NCBI GenBank assembly: GCA_003327425.1
Contig: QOQW01000005.1
Coordinates: 62,001 to 126,000, forward strand
Reading direction: 5' to 3'
Length of the DNA stretch: 64,000 bases
From: Candidatus Ozemibacter sibiricus
Lineage (GTDB): Bacteria > Muiribacteriota > Ozemobacteria > Ozemobacterales > Ozemobacteraceae
Positions within the stretch are counted from its first letter, which is position 1; each line of letters opens with the position of its first letter. A program made the position numbers and the translations under genes. Shown here one piece after another: positions 32,860 through 42,418 of this stretch. The notes under the pieces were generated by a model that saw nothing but the letters and a program-made list of their open reading frames with translations, was not told the origin of the DNA and ran no database searches.

Positions 32860-35109
32860 ATGCCCGCCACGTCCTGCGATATGCCCCAGACGCCTGCCGG
32901 GTCGGCCGTTGATCCCCACCGGGCCGATCGGCCATGGATCCTCCTCGGTGGGGCCGGGGCCGTGGTCGCGCTGCTGGCCACCATGGCGCCCAGCCTGGCC
33001 TGGGAGCACTACGGCGACGACGGCGGCGAGCTGACGGTGGCCGTCGCCACCCTCGGGGTGCCCCATCCGTCGGGCTACCCCTTCTATGTTCTGGTGGGCC
33101 ATCTCTTCTGCCGGCTCTTCGGTTGGCTGGGCGAGCCCGCCTTCTGCACCAACCTGCTGTCGGTGGCGGCCGGCGGCGCCACGGCGGCGGCGGCGGTCGC
33201 CCTGTCGCTGGTGGTGAATCGGCGTTTCGAGCTGGCGCTGCCGCCCTGGGCCGTGACCATCCTGGCCACCTTGGGCACTCTGGGCACGACCTTCTGGAGC
33301 CAGGCGGTCATCACCGAGGTGTATGTCCTGCACGCCGCCCTCACGCTCTGGACCGTGGCGCTGGTCGCGTGGTGGCACGAAGCCGTGCGCGAAGGCCGCC
33401 CGGCCGGCTTCTGGCTCTGGGGAGCGGGCCTGGTCTGGGGCCTGGCGCTGGGGGTGCATCTGACGGCCGGGTTCATCGCGGGCGGGCTGGCCCTGCTGGT
33501 CCTGGCGACCGACAAAACGATCTGGCGACGCCGGGTGTTCTGGGCGGCGGCGCTCACCTGCCTGGGCGCGGTGGTCCTGCTCTATGGCTGGCTGCCGCTG
33601 CTGGCGCGACGCAACGCCCCCGTCAACTGGGGCTACATCCGGAGCTGGTCCGATCTGGTCGACCATGTGACCGGGGCGCAGTACCGCTATCGCATGTTCG
33701 TCTTCACCGGACGCGATCTGGCCGAGCGGTTCCGGAATCTGTTCCTGCCGCTCCTGGCGCGCCAGTGGGGGCAGGGGAGCCTGGGCCTGCTCGCCCTGGG
33801 CCTGGCCTGGAGCCTGTGGGCCTGCACCTGGGGCGGCACTCCGGCGTCGCGGGCCTATGCGCGACGGCTGGGCGCCACCTGGCTGCTGCTGTGGACGCCG
33901 TCAGCGTTCTATTCCTTGAACTATAACATCGATGACTTGCCGCCCTACTTCACCACGACCTTCGTCTTCCTCGGCCTCCTCTTTCCGGTGGCGGCGGGGG
34001 CGGTGTCCCGGCTGCTGAGCCGGTGGAACCGGCAAGGCGGCGATCGCCTGGTGGTGGTCGGCCTCGCCTGCTTGATCCCATTGGTCGGGGTCGGGCGGCA
34101 GGTCGATCGCCTCAGCCTTCGCCACCATCGCACGGCGCGGGAGTTCGGTCGGCAGGCCTTCGCCGTCATGCCGCCCGGCAGTCTGGTCGTCAGCGACTAT
34201 GACGGTCGCACCAATGCCCTGCTCTACGAGCGCTGGCTGGGCGAAGGCCGCGAGAGCGGCACGGTGATCGTGCTGCGCACCATGCTGGCCAAGCGCTGGT
34301 ACCGCGATCACCTGCGCGATCTCTATTCTGGCGTGGCCATTCCCGAGCCGGCTCCCGGGTTCGCCGGCGCCGCCTGGGATCCTCTCTGCGATCACCTGGC
34401 CGAGCGCATCCTCCGCGACAATGCGGCCCGACCGCGGTTCCTGGTGCGCGATACCCTGCCCTTCGCTCGGCAGTGGCGCTTGGTGCCGGCGGCCGGCATC
34501 TATCGGGTCGAGGAACGAAGGCGCGACGACGAGGGGCCGCCGCGGCGCGGCCGGTTCCGGGCGGTCGATCTGGTGCCGTTCGCCAATGCCGATTACCGGG
34601 GCGATCCCTTCCTGCCCGGCTTGCGAACCGACGATGTCAACCATTTCCCTTCGCTCGGGGAAGGCGAGATCGGATCCGGGACCGGCGGGGTTCCCTTCTG
34701 GCTGCCGGCGCCGTGGGCGCGGTCCGGGCGGCCGTCGGTGATCACCACCTGCTATACCGCCGATTTCCAGGTGCGGATCCCGCTGCTGGCCACGGCCACG
34801 GTCGCCTTGCATCTGGCGGTGGCGGGCGGGGTCAGCCGGCAGGCCAGCGGTCCCCTGGCCTTCGTCCAGCCCTGGTATGAAGATGGGCCGGGGGAAGCCT
34901 TCCCCCTGACGGGGCTGCCCGATTACCGCGAGGCGCGGGAAGCCGCGCTGCGTTTCCTGCGGCTGCCGCTCGATCCGGGGCGGCGGCCGCTGACCGTCGA
35001 GATCAGGAGCGGCGGTGCGGTCACGCCCGAACCCTTCGTGCCCGGGGTGGCGGTGTTCGCCATGACCCAGGAGCTGCCGGCCTCCCTGGGCGACGCCTCT
35101 GACCGCTGA
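32860..35109 (+). CDS. DUF2723 membrane protein (O-mannosyltransferase/TMEM260-like glycosyltransferase)
   Basis: 749 residues; ATG at 32860 or 32881, neither with a good Shine-Dalgarno. The first periplasmic loop holds the DUF2723 signature DGGELTVAVATLGVPHPSGY (about residues 53-72), with the acidic pair expected for a GT-C glycosyltransferase. About ten membrane helices run to residue 420. The C-terminal 320 residues are soluble and contain a stretch (VSDYDGRTNALLY, LVRDTLPFARQW) typical of the family, then a beta-rich end. The family is linked to lipid-sugar-dependent O-glycosylation. Placed 81 bases after the transglutaminase gene and one base before the first cyclase. Confidence 0.85.
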   Translation: MPATSCDMPQTPAGSAVDPHRADRPWILLGGAGAVVALLATMAPSLAWEHYGDDGGELTVAVATLGVPHPSGYPFYVLVGHLFCRLFGWLGEPAFCTNLLSVAAGGATAAAAVALSLVVNRRFELALPPWAVTILATLGTLGTTFWSQAVITEVYVLHAALTLWTVALVAWWHEAVREGRPAGFWLWGAGLVWGLALGVHLTAGFIAGGLALLVLATDKTIWRRRVFWAAALTCLGAVVLLYGWLPLLARRNAPVNWGYIRSWSDLVDHVTGAQYRYRMFVFTGRDLAERFRNLFLPLLARQWGQGSLGLLALGLAWSLWACTWGGTPASRAYARRLGATWLLLWTPSAFYSLNYNIDDLPPYFTTTFVFLGLLFPVAAGAVSRLLSRWNRQGGDRLVVVGLACLIPLVGVGRQVDRLSLRHHRTAREFGRQAFAVMPPGSLVVSDYDGRTNALLYERWLGEGRESGTVIVLRTMLAKRWYRDHLRDLYSGVAIPEPAPGFAGAAWDPLCDHLAERILRDNAARPRFLVRDTLPFARQWRLVPAAGIYRVEERRRDDEGPPRRGRFRAVDLVPFANADYRGDPFLPGLRTDDVNHFPSLGEGEIGSGTGGVPFWLPAPWARSGRPSVITTCYTADFQVRIPLLATATVALHLAVAGGVSRQASGPLAFVQPWYEDGPGEAFPLTGLPDYREAREAALRFLRLPLDPGRRPLTVEIRSGGAVTPEPFVPGVAVFAMTQELPASLGDASDR

Positions 35110-35110
35110 G

Positions 35111-38100
35111 ATGGCCGGGGCCGAGCGGGTGGGGCCGGTGCGGTCGGCGTCGGGGGCCAGCCCTGTCCGGGTCGAAGGGGCGCTCGGGGTCATTCTCGCC
35201 CTGCTGTTGAGTTTCCTGCCCCCCCTTCTGCTGCGCTGGAATTGGGAACCCACCGCCGGGGGGGAAGCCTCGCGGCGAGCCAGCGATGAGAACTGGCATC
35301 ATGCCTCGTCCCGGCTGGCGGCCAGTCTGCGGCGCGCCTCGACCCTGCCGGCCTGGGTCCGCTTGAATGGGCAGGCGATCGGCGCCTGGGCCGAAGCGCT
35401 GTGGCGCCAGGGCGGGCGCGGCTTCTCCCCCGATCGGGCGCTCAGCCAGGCCAGGGTGCGGGGGCATCTGGCCGGACTGCCGCGCGGTCTCTGCTGGGCC
35501 TTCGTCTGCGAACCCGACCCGGCCAGCGCAGCACGCACGGTGTGGCCGGCCGCGCGGGGTCGGCGCGCTGCCTCTCCCGACGCCGGTCGCGCTGCCTCTC
35601 CCGACGCCGGTCGCGCTGCCTCTCCCGACGCCCGGGGCGGCGACCGACCGCGGCCGGCGCACCCGCGCTCGTCGTCGGTCGCCGGGCCCGGCCGCACGAT
35701 CCGCCTGTGTCGCGGGGTCGGCCTGGAAAGCGACCTGCGCAGCCTGTTCACCGCCCTGGCCGAGGGCGTGGTGCGGGCGGTGGTCGAGCAGGCGAGCGAA
35801 CCGGCCGATCGTCGGCTGGTGCGGCGGATCCAGGGCATGTTCGGGGAAGTGGTGTTCCCCGAGCTCTTCGGCAGCGATTTCCATGGGGAACCCTTCGCCG
35901 TGGTCTTTCGGGGGAAGCCCTATTATCTGGTCTGGCGCCTGATCCATGGCCCGCCGGCGCGGGCCGGCGGGCCGGCCCCCGTGCGGGGCGGGTTCTTCCT
36001 GCTCATTCCTATCCCCGCCGATCCGGCGCCGCTGGTGGCCCGCCTCTGCTTCCGCCACTGGGACCTGCTGCGGCAACGGCAGCCGATCTGGCCGGTCTTC
36101 ATCCCGCTGCCGGTCGGGGGGCGGGCAGGGTCGGCCGCCTCCGCCCGGCCGTTGTTCCATCCCCGGGTGGCGACGCGGGAGGTGCGCCGGCCGGCCCTTC
36201 GCCTGGCCCAGGACATGCCGCTCAGCCGGGGCGGTCCCGCCGAGGGGCACATGGGGCAGGTCCGGTTGCCCGGTCGGCTGGTGGGCCAGGTGCTCGATTG
36301 GGGGGCCTTCCGAGCGCGTCTTTGTCCGTTGGCCGACGGCATGCCCTATCTGGGCGTGCTGGTGGCGGCCCGGCCGTCGCCGCGTCCCGATCGGCTGCAT
36401 CGCCTGGCGAGCGGGTGGACGGTGGTGGCGGGGGCGATCTGGGGGTTGCTGGCCCTGGCCCGCCTGGCGCTTGGGCACTGGCCGACGCCGGCCTTGCGGC
36501 TGGGGCTGGCGCTGTGGTTCCTCGGACTGGTCAGTCTGCCTTTGATCTTGAGCGGGAAGTCAGGATTGATCTATCTGGCCGACCTCGGCAGCAACCTCAT
36601 GGAAACCCAGCGTCGGCGGATGGCCCGGCTCGTGGCCGGCATCGAAGCCGGCAGCGCCCGGTTGCGGCAGGTCCATCGCCAGGCCTGTCGGAGCCTCATG
36701 GCCCAGCCCGATCTGGTGGAACGCTGGCGCCGGGTGCAGACCGAAGGCGAGCCCGAAGGCCCGTTGCTGGCCGAGATGAACGCGCACCTGCGACGGCAAG
36801 GGGTCGATCCGACGGCCATTCTCGTGTTCGGACACGGCGGCTGGCATCTGGCGACGTTTTCGCCGGATCTTGGGGAAGTGGCCCGTTCTTCTCTTCCGCT
36901 CGTGCTGGACGGGTTCGCCCGGGAGATCCTGGGGCCGGTGGAGCGGGCGGGCGCCCTGGCCGCGGCGACGGTCGGGCGCATGCAGGCCCTCCATGCGCGC
37001 CGGCCCGAGTTGAAGCGTCAGATCAAAGCGCCCATGCCCGTGGTGCCGGCCATGGGCCTCGATGCCAATACCGACTACCTGCGCCGCCACGTGGGCGAAG
37101 TGCAGGAACTCTACCTCGGCCAACGCTGCTTCACGTTTTTCTTCGATCTTCTCCCTGGGCGGGCGACTCCCACCTATGCCCCCTTCATCCTGTGGAACCA
37201 TCAACTGACGGCTCGGCGCTACCTCGCAGAGGCGGTGCCGGAAGCCTGGCTGGGTTTCCTGCGCGAACGGGGGGCGGGCCTCGATCTGGCCGCCTTCCAG
37301 CAGGAGGGCAGCCAGTGGAAGCCGGTGAGCATCGCGGGCGATGGCGAAGGGTTGGTCGAATGGGCCCAGGCCTGCGAACAGCGGGTGCTCTTCTCGTCAG
37401 CCGGTGGGGCCGAGATCCTGGCGGTGCCGCTCAAAGGCTTGCCGGGGTTCGTTCTGGTCGTGCGCCTGTCGCTGGCCCCGCTTCAGGAAATTCTTTGGCG
37501 GGAGCGGTCCCTCTGGGGGGCCATCATGCTCAGCCTGCTCGGCCTGACGGTGCTGGGCGGCTACGGGCTGTCGCGCTGGCTGGCGGGCCCGGTCGTCGGG
37601 ATGACCGCCGCCTTGCAACAGGTGACCGGGGGCGACCTGGCGGTCCGGATACCCTGCGAGCGCGCCGACGAACTCGGGCAGGCCGCCGCCACCCTCGATA
37701 CCATGATCACCTGGCTGCGGGAACGGGAGCGTCTGCTGCCCTTCGTCTCGGCCAAAGCCCTCGAGGCCACCGGGTCGGGAAACCTGTTCGCGGCGGGCAT
37801 CGGGTCGGTCCAGACGGTGGCGGTGCTGGTGTCGGACATCCGCTCGTTCACCACCCTGACCGAGACGCACCCGCCGGCCGCCATCTTCGAAGCCTTGAAC
37901 GAGCATCTGGCGGCGATGGCGGCCGAGGTGCAGGCCGGGGGCGGCCAGATCGACCGCTTCGTCGGCGATGCCGTCTGGGCGGTCTTCTTCGCCGAGGCGG
38001 GGCGGCCACCGGTCGAGGCGGCGGTGGCGGCGGCCCGGGCCATGATGCGCCGCCATGCCGCGCTCAATGCCCGGCGGCAGGCGGCGGGCCGGTTCCCGTT

Positions 38101-38491
38101 CGCCATCGGGGTCGGTCTGGAGGTCGGCGAGGTGGTGGTCGGCATCCTGGGCGACCCCGGATCGCGCCTCGATTTCACCATGATCGGCGAAGCGGTCAGC
38201 GAGGCGGCCCGATGGGAAGCCGCCTCCAAGCTGGGGACCCGTTCCCGCATCGTGGCGTCGGCGCGAGTGGTGGCGGCCCTTCCGGTCGCCGAACAGGCCT
38301 GCTGGCATCGGCTTCCCGTGCCGGAAGACATCTACGAACGCGAGGCCGATCCCCCACCAGGGCCAGAGGCCGCCCAGGACCGTCCAGAGGCCGCCCAGGA
38401 CCGGTTGGGGGCTGGCCAGGGGCCGACGGGCGGGGCGGCGGCCCCGCGGGCGTCGCTTCCCAGCGATCGGGACGGAGGAGGCTCGGCATGA
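35111..38491 (+). CDS. Large membrane class III nucleotide cyclase, metal-binding partner
   Basis: 1126 residues. Membrane helices at about 22-43, 436-456, 463-482 and 800-820 divide it into two large sensor regions (44-435 and 483-799), followed by a HAMP domain (about 820-873) and a class III cyclase domain (about 900-1075). Both metal-binding aspartates are present: Asp909 in VSDIRSFT and Asp953 in RFVGDAVWAVF. The base-recognising Lys is Arg949, and the transition-state Asn is Ser1030 in FTMIGEAVSEAAR; Thr1023 and Arg1034 remain. A homodimer would therefore lack two catalytic residues per site. RAASPDAG is repeated three times near residue 155. The stop overlaps the next cyclase start (ATGA). 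Confidence 0.9.
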   Translation: MAGAERVGPVRSASGASPVRVEGALGVILALLLSFLPPLLLRWNWEPTAGGEASRRASDENWHHASSRLAASLRRASTLPAWVRLNGQAIGAWAEALWRQGGRGFSPDRALSQARVRGHLAGLPRGLCWAFVCEPDPASAARTVWPAARGRRAASPDAGRAASPDAGRAASPDARGGDRPRPAHPRSSSVAGPGRTIRLCRGVGLESDLRSLFTALAEGVVRAVVEQASEPADRRLVRRIQGMFGEVVFPELFGSDFHGEPFAVVFRGKPYYLVWRLIHGPPARAGGPAPVRGGFFLLIPIPADPAPLVARLCFRHWDLLRQRQPIWPVFIPLPVGGRAGSAASARPLFHPRVATREVRRPALRLAQDMPLSRGGPAEGHMGQVRLPGRLVGQVLDWGAFRARLCPLADGMPYLGVLVAARPSPRPDRLHRLASGWTVVAGAIWGLLALARLALGHWPTPALRLGLALWFLGLVSLPLILSGKSGLIYLADLGSNLMETQRRRMARLVAGIEAGSARLRQVHRQACRSLMAQPDLVERWRRVQTEGEPEGPLLAEMNAHLRRQGVDPTAILVFGHGGWHLATFSPDLGEVARSSLPLVLDGFAREILGPVERAGALAAATVGRMQALHARRPELKRQIKAPMPVVPAMGLDANTDYLRRHVGEVQELYLGQRCFTFFFDLLPGRATPTYAPFILWNHQLTARRYLAEAVPEAWLGFLRERGAGLDLAAFQQEGSQWKPVSIAGDGEGLVEWAQACEQRVLFSSAGGAEILAVPLKGLPGFVLVVRLSLAPLQEILWRERSLWGAIMLSLLGLTVLGGYGLSRWLAGPVVGMTAALQQVTGGDLAVRIPCERADELGQAAATLDTMITWLRERERLLPFVSAKALEATGSGNLFAAGIGSVQTVAVLVSDIRSFTTLTETHPPAAIFEALNEHLAAMAAEVQAGGGQIDRFVGDAVWAVFFAEAGRPPVEAAVAAARAMMRRHAALNARRQAAGRFPFAIGVGLEVGEVVVGILGDPGSRLDFTMIGEAVSEAARWEAASKLGTRSRIVASARVVAALPVAEQACWHRLPVPEDIYEREADPPPGPEAAQDRPEAAQDRLGAGQGPTGGAAAPRASLPSDRDGGGSA
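35564..35635 (+). repeat. Three tandem 24-bp repeats inside the first cyclase
   Basis: Unit CGCGCTGCCTCTCCCGACGC plus CGGT, three copies in frame, the third with one change at its end. It encodes RAASPDAG three times in the periplasmic sensor linker. Likely to vary in copy number between strains. Confidence 0.9.
38363..38404 (+). repeat. Two tandem 21-bp repeats at the end of the first cyclase
   Basis: CCAGAGGCCGCCCAGGACCG plus T or G, two copies in frame, encoding PEAAQDR twice in the disordered C-terminal tail. Confidence 0.85.
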
Positions 38492-41400
38492 TCGGACCAT
38501 CCTGGCCGGGGCGGCAACCTGCCCCCGGCCGCCGCGGCGCCTGCGTCCGGGCGGGGCGGGTCGCCCTCTGGCACCTGCTGGTCCTGGTGGCCCTGGCGGG
38601 GCCGCCGCTGGCGTTCTGGCAGGGCCTGGCCTCGCTGCGGGAGGCGGCTCTGGCCCACCGTCTCGAGGCGACGCTGGTTCGCTTGCAAGCCGATCTGAAG
38701 CTCGCTGAACGGGGCGGCGATCCGCGCGAACAGGTAGCCATGGGCATCCGACAACGGCTGCAGGACCTCGAAGCGCGGGTGGCGGCGATCCTCGAGGCCG
38801 AGCCGGCGCTCCTCGAGGCCGAGCCGGCGCTCGGGCGCGCGGGGCCCGCCGGGCCTGCCGACGCCGCGGCCTCCCCTGCCCATCCGGTGGCGGCAAGGTC
38901 GAGGCGGCCGGGCGACGAAGGCGCGACCGGCTCGCTCGGGGTGAACCCGGCGCGGGTGCTGGCGGTCGAGGCCAGGCGTCTGTTCGCCCGTTTGCGGCAA
39001 GAGCTGCCTGGCCTGTCGGGCATCGCGGTCGCCCATCAACCGCCGCCCGGCCAGGACTTTCCCGAGGTCGAGGATGAGCAGTCGTCGCGGTTCCTGTTCG
39101 CGGTCGGCGAACCGACCGGCATCACGCCCGCCGAATGGGAGAAATTCTTCACCATTCTGAAGAAATACCTCTACGGCGATCTCATGATCTCGGTCGAACT
39201 CGACGAATGGCGGTCCAAGGCTCTGCCGAAACGGTTCGGCATCTTCGCCAAAGCGCGCTTCCAGGCGTTCGCCCTGGGCAGTGCCGGGCAGTTCCAGAGC
39301 ACCTACGTGGCCGACCAGCCCCGCTTGCTGCTCTGGTGGCCGATCCGGCGACCCGGCCCGCCGACCGGCGCCGAGCCGGGTGGGGCGCGGGTGCCGCCGC
39401 GCGAGATCTTCCGCCGGACGTGGCAGTCCTTGCTCGGTGGCTTGATCTTCCTGGTCGATGGCCGGCCCTGGCTGGAAGCGGGCCCGATGGCCGGCTTCCC
39501 CCATGCTGTGCGCAACCTGGCCCGCGAAGGGTGCCGCTTGGCGCTGCTGTCCGAAGGCGCCGGGCGCCCGGTCTGCCATCCCGATTTCCAGCGGGATCCC
39601 GAGCTGCACGCCCTGATCCGTCGGCCCGGTCGGCCGGGCGTGCAGGTCGGCGACCGCTGGGTCATGATGGAAGGCCGGCTGGCCGTGGGAGGCGAGAGCC
39701 GATTGGTGGTCGCCCGGCCGCGGCCGGGTCTTCCCCCCGAGCAGCGGCGCTGGTTGGCGCTCGGGCTGGCCGGGGCCGGGTGGTGGTTGGGCCTGGGCCT
39801 GGCCGCCTGGGGGCATGCCGTCTGGCTGCGGCGGCCCCTGGGCTTCCCCATCCGGCAGCAACTGCTGGCCGGGTTCGCCTTCCTGTTGCTGCCCGCTCTG
39901 GGCATGGGCGCGATCTTCCTGGAAAAGCACCTCCTCGAGAAGCAGACCCGGTTCGAGGCCGATCTGCGCAGCCGCCTGGAAAGTCGGCTCACCGCTTTCG
40001 ATGATGGGTTGCAGCTCTATCGCTCCTGGGGCTGCCGAACCCTGGCCGACCGTTTCGGCTCGGCTTCGTTCACGGCGGCGGTCCGTGAGCTGGAAGCCAC
40101 CCGCCGTCCCGGCGATCCCGAGCTGACGCGGGGATTCCTGCGACGGGCCCATCGGGCGGCGTTCCAGTGGGGCATTCATGTCCGCAATCTGCAGCTGACC
40201 TCGCGGGGTCGGTTCCAGATGCAGTATTTCCCGTCCATCGATCAGGAAGCCGCTTCCCGGATGGGGGAGACCATCGCTGGTCTGTATCAGGCTGGTCTGC
40301 GACGCTATGGGAGGGCCTCGTCCGGGGGGGAGGAGCCGGCGGCGAACTCGAGCGCCGCCGGCCATGAGCTGGCCGTGGCCGGGCAGGAGTTCAAGGGCGA
40401 GGAGGTGCGGAATTTCCTGCGGGTGCTGATGCCGCCCGACATGGTGACCGACATGCTCCTGACGCCGATGGGCTTCCATGACCTGGGGGCCGGACAGGGG
40501 GTCTCGATCACGGCGCATTTCGTCCTGGGATTTCCGCACCACCCCGATTACCTGCTCAGCATCAATCTGCTTTCGCACCTGTTCGAGCGCAGCCACCTCC
40601 TGGCCTGGGAACCGCCCGTGCCGAGCCTGGCGGCCGTGCCGGGCGAGCTGGGCCAGCCGTTCGTCACCATCTGGGAAAGCCCTGCCTGCGCGTTGATCCA
40701 CCCGTTCATCGAGGCCAACCTGCGGGGTTCCCAGACCCGAATGACCGATTTCTGCGATGTTCGGCGCCTGTTCACGCTCCTCGACCTGCCGCTGGCCGAC
40801 CATCTGTGCCGGGCGGCCCAGGTCGGCGGCCCCTCGGCGGCCATCCTCGGGGCCGGGGAGGCGGCTCGCCTGGTGGTGGCGATGCCGGGCCGGGCGTTCC
40901 TGGGACGACTGCTGGTCGCCCAGGTGCCGTTAGGCCCCTTCCGCGAGGAACAACGCCGGTTCGCCTGGCTGGTGCGCGGCCTGCTTGCTCTGGCCCTGCT
41001 CTGGACGCTCCTGCTGGCCCTGCTGGTGGCTCGTCGCATCGAGGCGCCCGTGGCGCGCCTGGTGGCCGCGGCGCAGCGGATCATGGCCGGCGATTTCGCC
41101 ACCCCCCTCCTCGAGCCGCGGGCGGATGAATTCGGGCGCCTGGCTCAGGCCTTCAATCTCATGCGGGAAGGCGTGGCCCAGGGGCGCCGCTTGTCTCGCC
41201 TCGTTTCCGATTCGGTGCGCGAATCGGTTCGCACTGCCACCCCCGATGCCGGGCAGGCGACGGCGGTCGAAGCGGTCGTCCTGTTCGCCGGTCCGGCCGG
41301 GTTCCGGGAGCGGTTGCGGCGCCATGCCCCCCGCGAGGTGGTGGCCGATCTGAACAGTCTGCTCGAGATGATGGCCCAGGCCGTCCGGGATCATGGGGGG

Positions 41401-41844
41401 GAAGTCAACAAGTTCATCGGCGAACGGGTGCTGGCCGTCTTCCCGCGCGCCGGGCCCAAAGGGCAGGAACGCGCCGCCGAGGCGGCCGTGGCGACCGCCG
41501 CCGTCCTGCGTCGCCGGATCCGCACCTTGCCGGCCTGGCGGGCGACGCCGTTGGGCATCGGGCTGGTGCAGGGCCCTGTCCTGGCCGGCATTCTCGGGGC
41601 CGAGCGGGTCCGGCTCGAATACACGGTGATCGGCGATACGGTCAACCTAGCCTCCCGGCTGTGCGATCTGGCGCTGGCCCAACCCGCCGGCGGGATCATC
41701 CTGGAGGCCGTGCTGGCCGGCGAACTGCGGCGCCTGGGCGCCGAACCCTGGACCAGCCGGGCGCGCCGGCTGCCCGACCTGCTGGTCAAGGGCAAGTCGC
41801 GGACCATCCAGGCCTATCGCCTGGACGAGCCCGATGGCGCCTGA
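38488..41844 (+). CDS. Large membrane class III nucleotide cyclase, substrate-binding partner
   Basis: 1118 residues; ATG overlaps the stop of the first cyclase and has GGAGGAG upstream. The same layout as its neighbour: helices at about 25-44, 421-446, 459-478 and 827-850, two large sensor regions, HAMP (850-905) and a cyclase domain (about 928-1100). Here the substrate side is intact, with Lys975 in NKFIGE and Thr1046, Asn1053 and Arg1057 in YTVIGDTVNLASR. The first metal Asp is Gly935 (LFAGPAGF) and the second is Glu979. Alone it should bind nucleotide but not catalyse. Its losses mirror those of the upstream cyclase, suggesting a heterodimer. A 21-bp tandem repeat lies at 38791-38832. Confidence 0.9.
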   Translation: MIGPSWPGRQPAPGRRGACVRAGRVALWHLLVLVALAGPPLAFWQGLASLREAALAHRLEATLVRLQADLKLAERGGDPREQVAMGIRQRLQDLEARVAAILEAEPALLEAEPALGRAGPAGPADAAASPAHPVAARSRRPGDEGATGSLGVNPARVLAVEARRLFARLRQELPGLSGIAVAHQPPPGQDFPEVEDEQSSRFLFAVGEPTGITPAEWEKFFTILKKYLYGDLMISVELDEWRSKALPKRFGIFAKARFQAFALGSAGQFQSTYVADQPRLLLWWPIRRPGPPTGAEPGGARVPPREIFRRTWQSLLGGLIFLVDGRPWLEAGPMAGFPHAVRNLAREGCRLALLSEGAGRPVCHPDFQRDPELHALIRRPGRPGVQVGDRWVMMEGRLAVGGESRLVVARPRPGLPPEQRRWLALGLAGAGWWLGLGLAAWGHAVWLRRPLGFPIRQQLLAGFAFLLLPALGMGAIFLEKHLLEKQTRFEADLRSRLESRLTAFDDGLQLYRSWGCRTLADRFGSASFTAAVRELEATRRPGDPELTRGFLRRAHRAAFQWGIHVRNLQLTSRGRFQMQYFPSIDQEAASRMGETIAGLYQAGLRRYGRASSGGEEPAANSSAAGHELAVAGQEFKGEEVRNFLRVLMPPDMVTDMLLTPMGFHDLGAGQGVSITAHFVLGFPHHPDYLLSINLLSHLFERSHLLAWEPPVPSLAAVPGELGQPFVTIWESPACALIHPFIEANLRGSQTRMTDFCDVRRLFTLLDLPLADHLCRAAQVGGPSAAILGAGEAARLVVAMPGRAFLGRLLVAQVPLGPFREEQRRFAWLVRGLLALALLWTLLLALLVARRIEAPVARLVAAAQRIMAGDFATPLLEPRADEFGRLAQAFNLMREGVAQGRRLSRLVSDSVRESVRTATPDAGQATAVEAVVLFAGPAGFRERLRRHAPREVVADLNSLLEMMAQAVRDHGGEVNKFIGERVLAVFPRAGPKGQERAAEAAVATAAVLRRRIRTLPAWRATPLGIGLVQGPVLAGILGAERVRLEYTVIGDTVNLASRLCDLALAQPAGGIILEAVLAGELRRLGAEPWTSRARRLPDLLVKGKSRTIQAYRLDEPDGA
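38791..38832 (+). repeat. Two exact tandem 21-bp repeats inside the second cyclase
   Basis: CTCGAGGCCGAGCCGGCGCT plus C, two identical copies in frame, encoding LEAEPAL twice in the first sensor region. Confidence 0.9.
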
Positions 41845-41890
41845 CGTCGCGGGCCGCCGGACGGCCGTTGGGCCGCGGCGGCGAAAAAGA

Positions 41891-41918
41891 CGAAAAACTA
41901 TTGCCGAAAAGTTTGTCG
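41891..41918 (+). promoter_or_regulatory. Candidate operator (inverted repeat) over the regulator promoter
   Basis: CGAAAAACT and CGACAAACT (on the other strand) face each other across 10 bases, 8 of 9 matching, and flank the -35 of the promoter at 41901-41929. A natural site for autoregulation by the winged-helix protein that follows. Confidence 0.4.
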
Positions 41919-41929
41919 TATGTTATGGT
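41901..41929 (+). promoter_or_regulatory. Promoter of the winged-helix regulator, probably leaderless
   Basis: -35 TTGCCG, exactly 17 bp, then -10 TATGGT (41924-41929). The expected start is at 41936, the A of the ATG, and no Shine-Dalgarno is present. Confidence 0.55.
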
Positions 41930-41935
41930 GCGGGC

Positions 41936-42418
41936 ATGGCACGGCTGTCTTCCTCGCCGAAGCAGGCCCCGGCGCGCTCCGCCTCTCTGGCCAGAGCCCG
42001 CGCCCCCTGGACCTTCCTCACCAACCATGCCCATGTGCTGCTGAGCATCGGCCGGACGCCCGACATCCGGATGCGGGATCTGGCCGCCCGCGTCGGGATC
42101 ACCGAACGGGCGGTGCAGCGCATCGTGGCCGATCTGGTGGAAGCGGGCTATCTCGAGACCGAGCGGGCGGGCCGGCGCAATCGGTATCGGGTCCGCACCG
42201 ATCGGCCCTTGCGCCATGCCGTGACCCGGCATCGCTCGGTCGGGACCCTCTTCGATCTCATCCACGAACTAGAGCCCCTGGCCGTCTTTCCGCCGCGCTC
42301 CGATGAGGATGGGGCGCCGGGCTCCGGTCCTTCCCACACCCCGGGGAAGCCCCCCCGAACCCGCCGTCGCCCCGCCGGGGCCGGCAAACCCGCATCGCGG
42401 GCCCATTCCTTCGAGTAG
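41936..42418 (+). CDS. Winged-helix (MarR-like) transcriptional regulator
   Basis: 160 residues. The start was chosen at 41936 because an earlier frame opening lies upstream of the promoter. A winged-helix DNA-binding domain covers about 20-105: TNHAHVLLSIG, the helix-turn-helix MRDLAARVGITERAVQRIVADLVEAGYL, then the wing RAGRRNRYRVR. It belongs to a small family of short regulators with the TNHAHVLL and ITERAVQRIV signature often annotated as MarR- or ArsR-like; there is no effector domain. The tail is basic and Pro/Gly-rich. It probably binds the inverted repeat at its own promoter. Target genes unknown; the isocitrate dehydrogenase gene starts 54 bases downstream. Confidence 0.82.
   Translation: MARLSSSPKQAPARSASLARARAPWTFLTNHAHVLLSIGRTPDIRMRDLAARVGITERAVQRIVADLVEAGYLETERAGRRNRYRVRTDRPLRHAVTRHRSVGTLFDLIHELEPLAVFPPRSDEDGAPGSGPSHTPGKPPRTRRRPAGAGKPASRAHSFE

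Follow-up and report, generated by a model that had tools for sequence, protein, structure and literature searches.

In the window (the whole stretch of 64,000 nucleotides of Candidatus Ozemibacter sibiricus DNA that was analysed), two adjacent forward-strand genes encode membrane-anchored class III cyclases. ORF1 (35111..38491; 1,126 amino acids) and ORF2 (38488..41844; 1,118 amino acids) both encode a sensor, a HAMP domain, and a cyclase domain. The cyclase domain carries the metal site in ORF1, the C1-like subunit, and the substrate site in ORF2, the C2-like subunit. The genes had been noted in the initial annotation to overlap by four bases, and we found this overlap as an ATGA stop/start sequence at 38488..38491, with the ATG start codon of ORF2 at 38488. 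Translational coupling of the two genes is likely. One base upstream of ORF1 lies a gene for a TMEM260-like (PF11028) O-mannosyltransferase (32860-35109), which may belong to the same operon. A MarR-type winged-helix gene (41834-42418) starts within the end of ORF2 and is followed by a gene for monomeric isocitrate dehydrogenase. Short in-frame amino acid repeats (AASPDAGR three times, PEAAQDR twice, and LLEAEPAL twice) occur in low-confidence loops of ORF1 (approximately 35560-35640 and 38360-38400) and ORF2 (approximately 38790-38860), perhaps as a result of recent slippage.

Pfam identified HAMP and Guanylate_cyc domains in both proteins. The HAMP domains (PF00672) span residues 820 to 867 of ORF1 (37568..37711; E = 9e-10) and residues 846 to 895 of ORF2 (41023..41172; E = 1e-13). 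They are preceded by the sensors, at residues 19 to 819 of ORF1 (35165..37567) and residues 18 to 845 of ORF2 (38539..41022). AlphaFold models of the sensors (pLDDT of 85 for ORF1 and 83.5 for ORF2) had the same layout: TM1, an extracytoplasmic alpha/beta module, a TM2/TM3 hairpin, a second extracytoplasmic alpha/beta module, and TM4 leading into HAMP. In a Foldseek search, the models resembled dCache ligand-binding domains and models of chemoreceptors only weakly (TM-score of at most ~0.5 by target length), and the predicted modules, including the second one of ORF1, can only tentatively be called dCache-like. Searching the PDB by sequence with the sensors yielded relatives of solved structure only for HAMP/TM4. 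We did not find a six-helix membrane domain in either half of the pair; each half has four helices and two extracytoplasmic modules. The sensor halves of ORF1 and ORF2 were homologous from end to end over 722 columns (hhalign probability of 100; E = 5e-45). The common sensor and HAMP layout previously ascribed to the two proteins is borne out by the hhalign comparison, the AlphaFold models, and the PF00672 matches.

In the textbook view, class III cyclases of bacteria act as homodimers whose two active sites are equal. A full site requires six residues: two metal-binding Asp from one side of the dimer interface and, from the opposite side, the substrate residues Lys, Asp/Thr, Asn, and Arg. To place these positions, we used phmmer alignments to the solved cyclases CyaB (3r5g) and CyaC (1wc1) and a photoactivated cyclase (5x4t). 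Both proteins matched PDB cyclases at an E value of 1e-16 and scored above the PF00211 cutoff of 21.9 bits (40.3 and 37.4 bits). In the ORF1 cyclase domain (residues 900 to 1058; 37808..38284), both metal residues, Asp909 (metal 1; 37835..37837) and Asp953 (metal 2; 37967..37969), are kept, with Arg949 (37955..37957) at the substrate Lys position and Ser1030 (38198..38200) at the catalytic Asn position. In the ORF2 domain (residues 929 to 1112, including a VKGK motif; 41272..41823), Gly935 (41290..41292) and Glu979 (41422..41424) stand at the positions of the first and second metal Asp, and Lys975 (41410..41412), Thr1046 (41623..41625), Asn1053 (41644..41646), and Arg1057 (41656..41658) are kept. 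Thr1046, on the adenine side, meets the class IIIb criterion of Thr or Ser in place of the adenine-binding Asp. The C-terminal KGK motif is retained in ORF2 and missing from ORF1. Every residue named in the initial annotation was exact, and the alignments and residue checks ruled out misplaced motifs. Its claim that neither protein alone has a full site, while the pair has one, also held at the six positions. ORF1 nevertheless retains Thr1023 and Arg1034, so that only two of the four positions in its substrate half are changed (K to R and N to S). Because these two residues are present and the K-to-R and D-to-E changes are mild, the sequence does not rule out some weak activity of a homodimer.

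The same split was found throughout the home genome (5.68 Mb in 58 contigs). An unbiased PF00211 search gave 53 matches, and we typed 54 cyclase domains at the six active-site positions. There were 17 tandem or fused pairs, and all 17 were complementary: one partner combined both metal Asp with a broken substrate half, and its counterpart had Lys, Thr, Asn, and Arg but had lost the first metal Asp. The unpaired class III domains were intact in 18 of 20 cases; the two exceptions were degenerate, and one of them was also small. Given that all pairs share the split and that 18 of the 20 other domains are intact, chance can be excluded as its origin. If the 17 C1 and 17 C2 domains were paired randomly, the probability of all pairs being mixed would be 6e-5, with the caveat that the pairs share ancestry and are not independent. 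In 7 of the 17 pairs, the two cyclase domains lay in a single open reading frame of 2,151 to 2,424 amino acids, which also encoded two membrane helix sets. In this genome, an intact cyclase precedes a small, degenerate one (DADNNA; L048:5898 and 7838), and a lone degenerate cyclase (GKETRH) is found at L049:7418. The genome also encodes 14 cNMP-binding domains, which are possible receivers.

Next, we looked at relatives across the phylum (Riflebacteria). These loci were fetched with C1 and C2 profiles, so the counts are biased by selection and do not give an unbiased rate as the 17 of 17 in the home genome does. Complementary residues were observed in 106 of 109 pairs, and the other three were cut by locus ends. 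The C1-like domains had both metal Asp in all 108 cases. Among the C2-like domains, Lys, Asn, and Arg were present in 107 of 107 and Thr was at the adenine position in 106 of 107; the first metal Asp remained in only two, both of which had lost the second. Many C2-like members have Glu at the metal 2 position. Lys is retained in half of the C1-like domains (54 of 108), and these have lost only Asn and/or Arg. The KGK tail motif was present in 36 of 36 C2-like domains versus 7 of 65 C1-like domains. The initial reading would have been refuted by an orthologue in which each partner keeps all residues; the orthologue of the window pair from another species of the same genus (L202) instead has the same split (DRDTGR and GKETNR). 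Homologous adjacent pairs, a search for which had been proposed with the reading, are numerous, and their losses covary without exception in the 106 fully covered pairs.

One could read this pattern as decay, with both partners being catalytically dead pseudocyclases that serve as receptors or scaffolds. Neither partner alone has a full site, and the Glu at metal 2 of many C2-like members would fit such a reading. Decay, however, would not spare exactly one composite site in every one of the 106 fully covered pairs, where one partner retains 100% of the metal Asp and its counterpart 100% of the Lys, Asn, and Arg, and we regard paired pseudocyclases as very improbable. An oddity of one genome or sequencing errors can also be ruled out, as the split is seen in 17 paralogous pairs and in relatives, including named records.

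The C1-type sensor was present in all 24 genomes of the family of the window pair (Ozemobacteraceae) and was nearly absent from seven other families. Pairs were also found in family f3 (L285, L286, and L325). In the remaining families, the loci that we read had intact domains, except for one nonpaired variant. L092 and L110 were rejected as evidence from outside the phylum, as their genomes return the same matches as do the Riflebacteria genomes G008 and G009. Tandem cyclase genes of Rhodospirillales/Alphaproteobacteria (L139, L142, L143, L152, and L159) lack the substrate Lys in both partners (Ser or Asn in one and Thr in the other) and keep the other residues. They are not complementary and are possibly another kind of paired cyclase.

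More than half of the phylum pairs (57 of 109) were observed as one open reading frame with the layout sensor-HAMP-C1-sensor-HAMP-C2, C1 always being first. Fusions also occur in named records (L082, L083, L084, L106, L125, and L145). An Ozemobacteraceae contig (C314 of genome G015; L271 and L272) carries six fused C1-C2 cyclases in tandem, and another locus (L212) carries three. We ruled out that the fusions are artifacts of long GC-rich frames: both catalytic domains share the frame in all 57, including the tandem arrays (L212, L271, and L272). Other apparent fusions were rejected. The long upstream frame in the window (from 35401) is such a frame artifact, as ORF1 terminates at a stop codon of its own at 38491, and four long open reading frames in one genome of another phylum (L321 to L324) have one intact domain each. 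Because fused relatives exist, the separate genes can be taken to encode partners (Rosetta stone evidence). Where the genes are separate, 31 of 58 scanned junctions have an exact 4-bp overlap. In a tree of the joined catalytic domains, the fused state changed at least four times. A supported group of 29 contains the window pair together with its orthologue, and 27 of the 29 are fused; judging from this position, the two window genes may have become split secondarily.

These data also bear on whether the adjacency reflects nothing more than duplication, with the proteins acting as partly active homodimers or pairing with the intact cyclases of the genome. The residues Thr1023 and Arg1034 in ORF1, the Lys in half of the C1-like domains, and the availability of 18 intact unpaired cyclase domains leave some room for this. 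The 57 fusions and the 4-bp overlaps, on the other hand, fix 1:1 partners, the trees of the partners mirror each other within one genome, and the intact cyclases have no sensor or only a weak sensor match. We therefore see very little likelihood in such a scheme.

The relationship between the halves was further examined with trees. In the home-genome tree, the C1-like domains formed one clade (support of 100/96), and most C2-like domains formed another, with three deep C2-like domains outside. In a larger tree, the three labels required three changes, the minimum being two. We observed coevolution of the partners: the C1 and C2 trees of 106 pairs mirrored each other at r = 0.86 (permutation maximum of 0.11), and those of the 17 paralogous pairs within a single genome did so at r = 0.73 (0 of 5,000 permutations were as high). 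The homologous sensor halves and the mirrored trees imply that a whole receptor gene was duplicated, that the active site was then split, and that the pair was multiplied as a unit. In the proposed course of events, a whole receptor cyclase would have been duplicated and its copies would have undergone reciprocal active-site loss, after which the pair would have been duplicated many times and many pairs fused.

We conclude, with a probability of roughly 0.88, that ORF1, as the C1-like subunit, and ORF2, as the C2-like subunit, form a membrane receptor adenylate cyclase that is an obligate heterodimer. The heterodimer put forward in the initial annotation is supported by the motif placement, the numerous adjacent pairs, the covarying losses, and the fusions in 57 of 109 pairs. 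Its physical assembly and catalysis are inferred, as there is no assay and no model of the complex; the fusions, the gene overlaps, and the mirrored trees support it indirectly. The catalytic domains of ORF1 and ORF2 would meet across the dimer interface, where Asp909 and Asp953 of ORF1 would bind two metal ions. On the ORF2 side, Lys975 and Thr1046 would contact adenine, and Asn1053, Arg1057, and the lysine of the KGK motif would serve catalysis and the phosphates. The metal residues of ORF1 and the substrate residues of ORF2 would thus make up one full active site. The second site would be dead and may be a regulatory pseudosite. Each subunit would have four membrane helices and an extracytoplasmic sensor whose ligand-binding modules are probably dCache-like. 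Its HAMP domain would relay ligand-induced motions, so that those of both sensors reach the shared interface. Ligand sensing is itself an inference, and an AND gate of two inputs remains speculation.

Class IIIb adenylate cyclases recognize adenine through a Lys and a Thr, and we infer cAMP as the product because both are present. A heterodimer making cGMP or another cyclic nucleotide is conceivable, as substrate choice in class III is not certain from two residues. Against this, the class IIIb adenine pair is kept almost throughout the C2-like domains (Lys in all and Thr in all but one). The specificity rule is general knowledge, and we consider another product unlikely, if somewhat less so than the two alternatives above.

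The animal membrane adenylyl cyclases (M1-C1-M2-C2 pseudoheterodimers) are among the closest known parallels. As in the window pair, their C1 has the two metal Asp and their C2 has Lys, the adenine-site Asp/Thr, Asn, and Arg; as in the Riflebacteria pairs, there are two membrane-anchored halves and, by inference in the bacteria, one live and one dead site. The animal enzymes are fused with C1 first, as are many Riflebacteria pairs. The two groups differ in several respects. Whereas the animal membrane domain has six helices, the bacterial one consists of a TM, an extracytoplasmic module, TM-TM, a second extracytoplasmic module, and a TM plus HAMP. The bacterial pair has Thr rather than Asp at the adenine site, and, in contrast to the single animal C1-C2 chain, it is encoded by two genes in the window (by one chain in 57 relatives). 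We infer that its origin was independent of the animal duplication.

The Riflebacteria proteins share a class III catalytic domain and a membrane anchor with Mycobacterium tuberculosis Rv1625c/Cya and further class III cyclases of bacteria, but those are homodimers with two sites, unlike the heterodimers with one predicted site described here. Rv1625c is held to be near the progenitor of the animal enzymes (PMC9433096, PMC9552081). According to a 2022 perspective, bacterial class III cyclases homodimerize, fused dimeric species are unknown in bacteria, the fusion dates to early eukaryotes, and its advantage is posed as a question (PMC9552081). The solved catalytic domains closest in sequence are the class IIIb cyclases Spirulina CyaC and Pseudomonas CyaB, which also have Thr at the adenine site but, unlike ORF1 or ORF2, have all six residues in each chain. 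Heterodimeric class III enzymes with unequal subunits also include the fungal rhodopsin guanylyl cyclase/NeoR heterodimers and soluble guanylyl cyclase (PMC12264004, PMC3591389); these are eukaryotic, form cGMP, and have sensors unrelated to those of Riflebacteria. Our search of the open-access literature found no report on Riflebacteria cyclases, and this absence does not prove novelty. What appears to be new is that a known enzyme class has a bacterial variant that is heterodimeric and often fused, with its biochemistry inferred from the genes alone.

It is probable that these bacteria independently invented the plan of the animal adenylyl cyclases, by duplication, reciprocal loss, and fusion, with 17 or more paralogous pairs in a single genome and with two extracytoplasmic sensors and one active site per pair. 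Separate and fused versions of the inferred heterodimer coexist in one bacterial family, with repeated switching between the two states. Since both states stand side by side, the question of what advantage fusion brings becomes testable. The family would offer a natural set of one-site cyclases in which each of the two sensors could be examined on its own. It may also provide a bacterial counterpart of the dead site that has a regulatory role in the animal enzymes.
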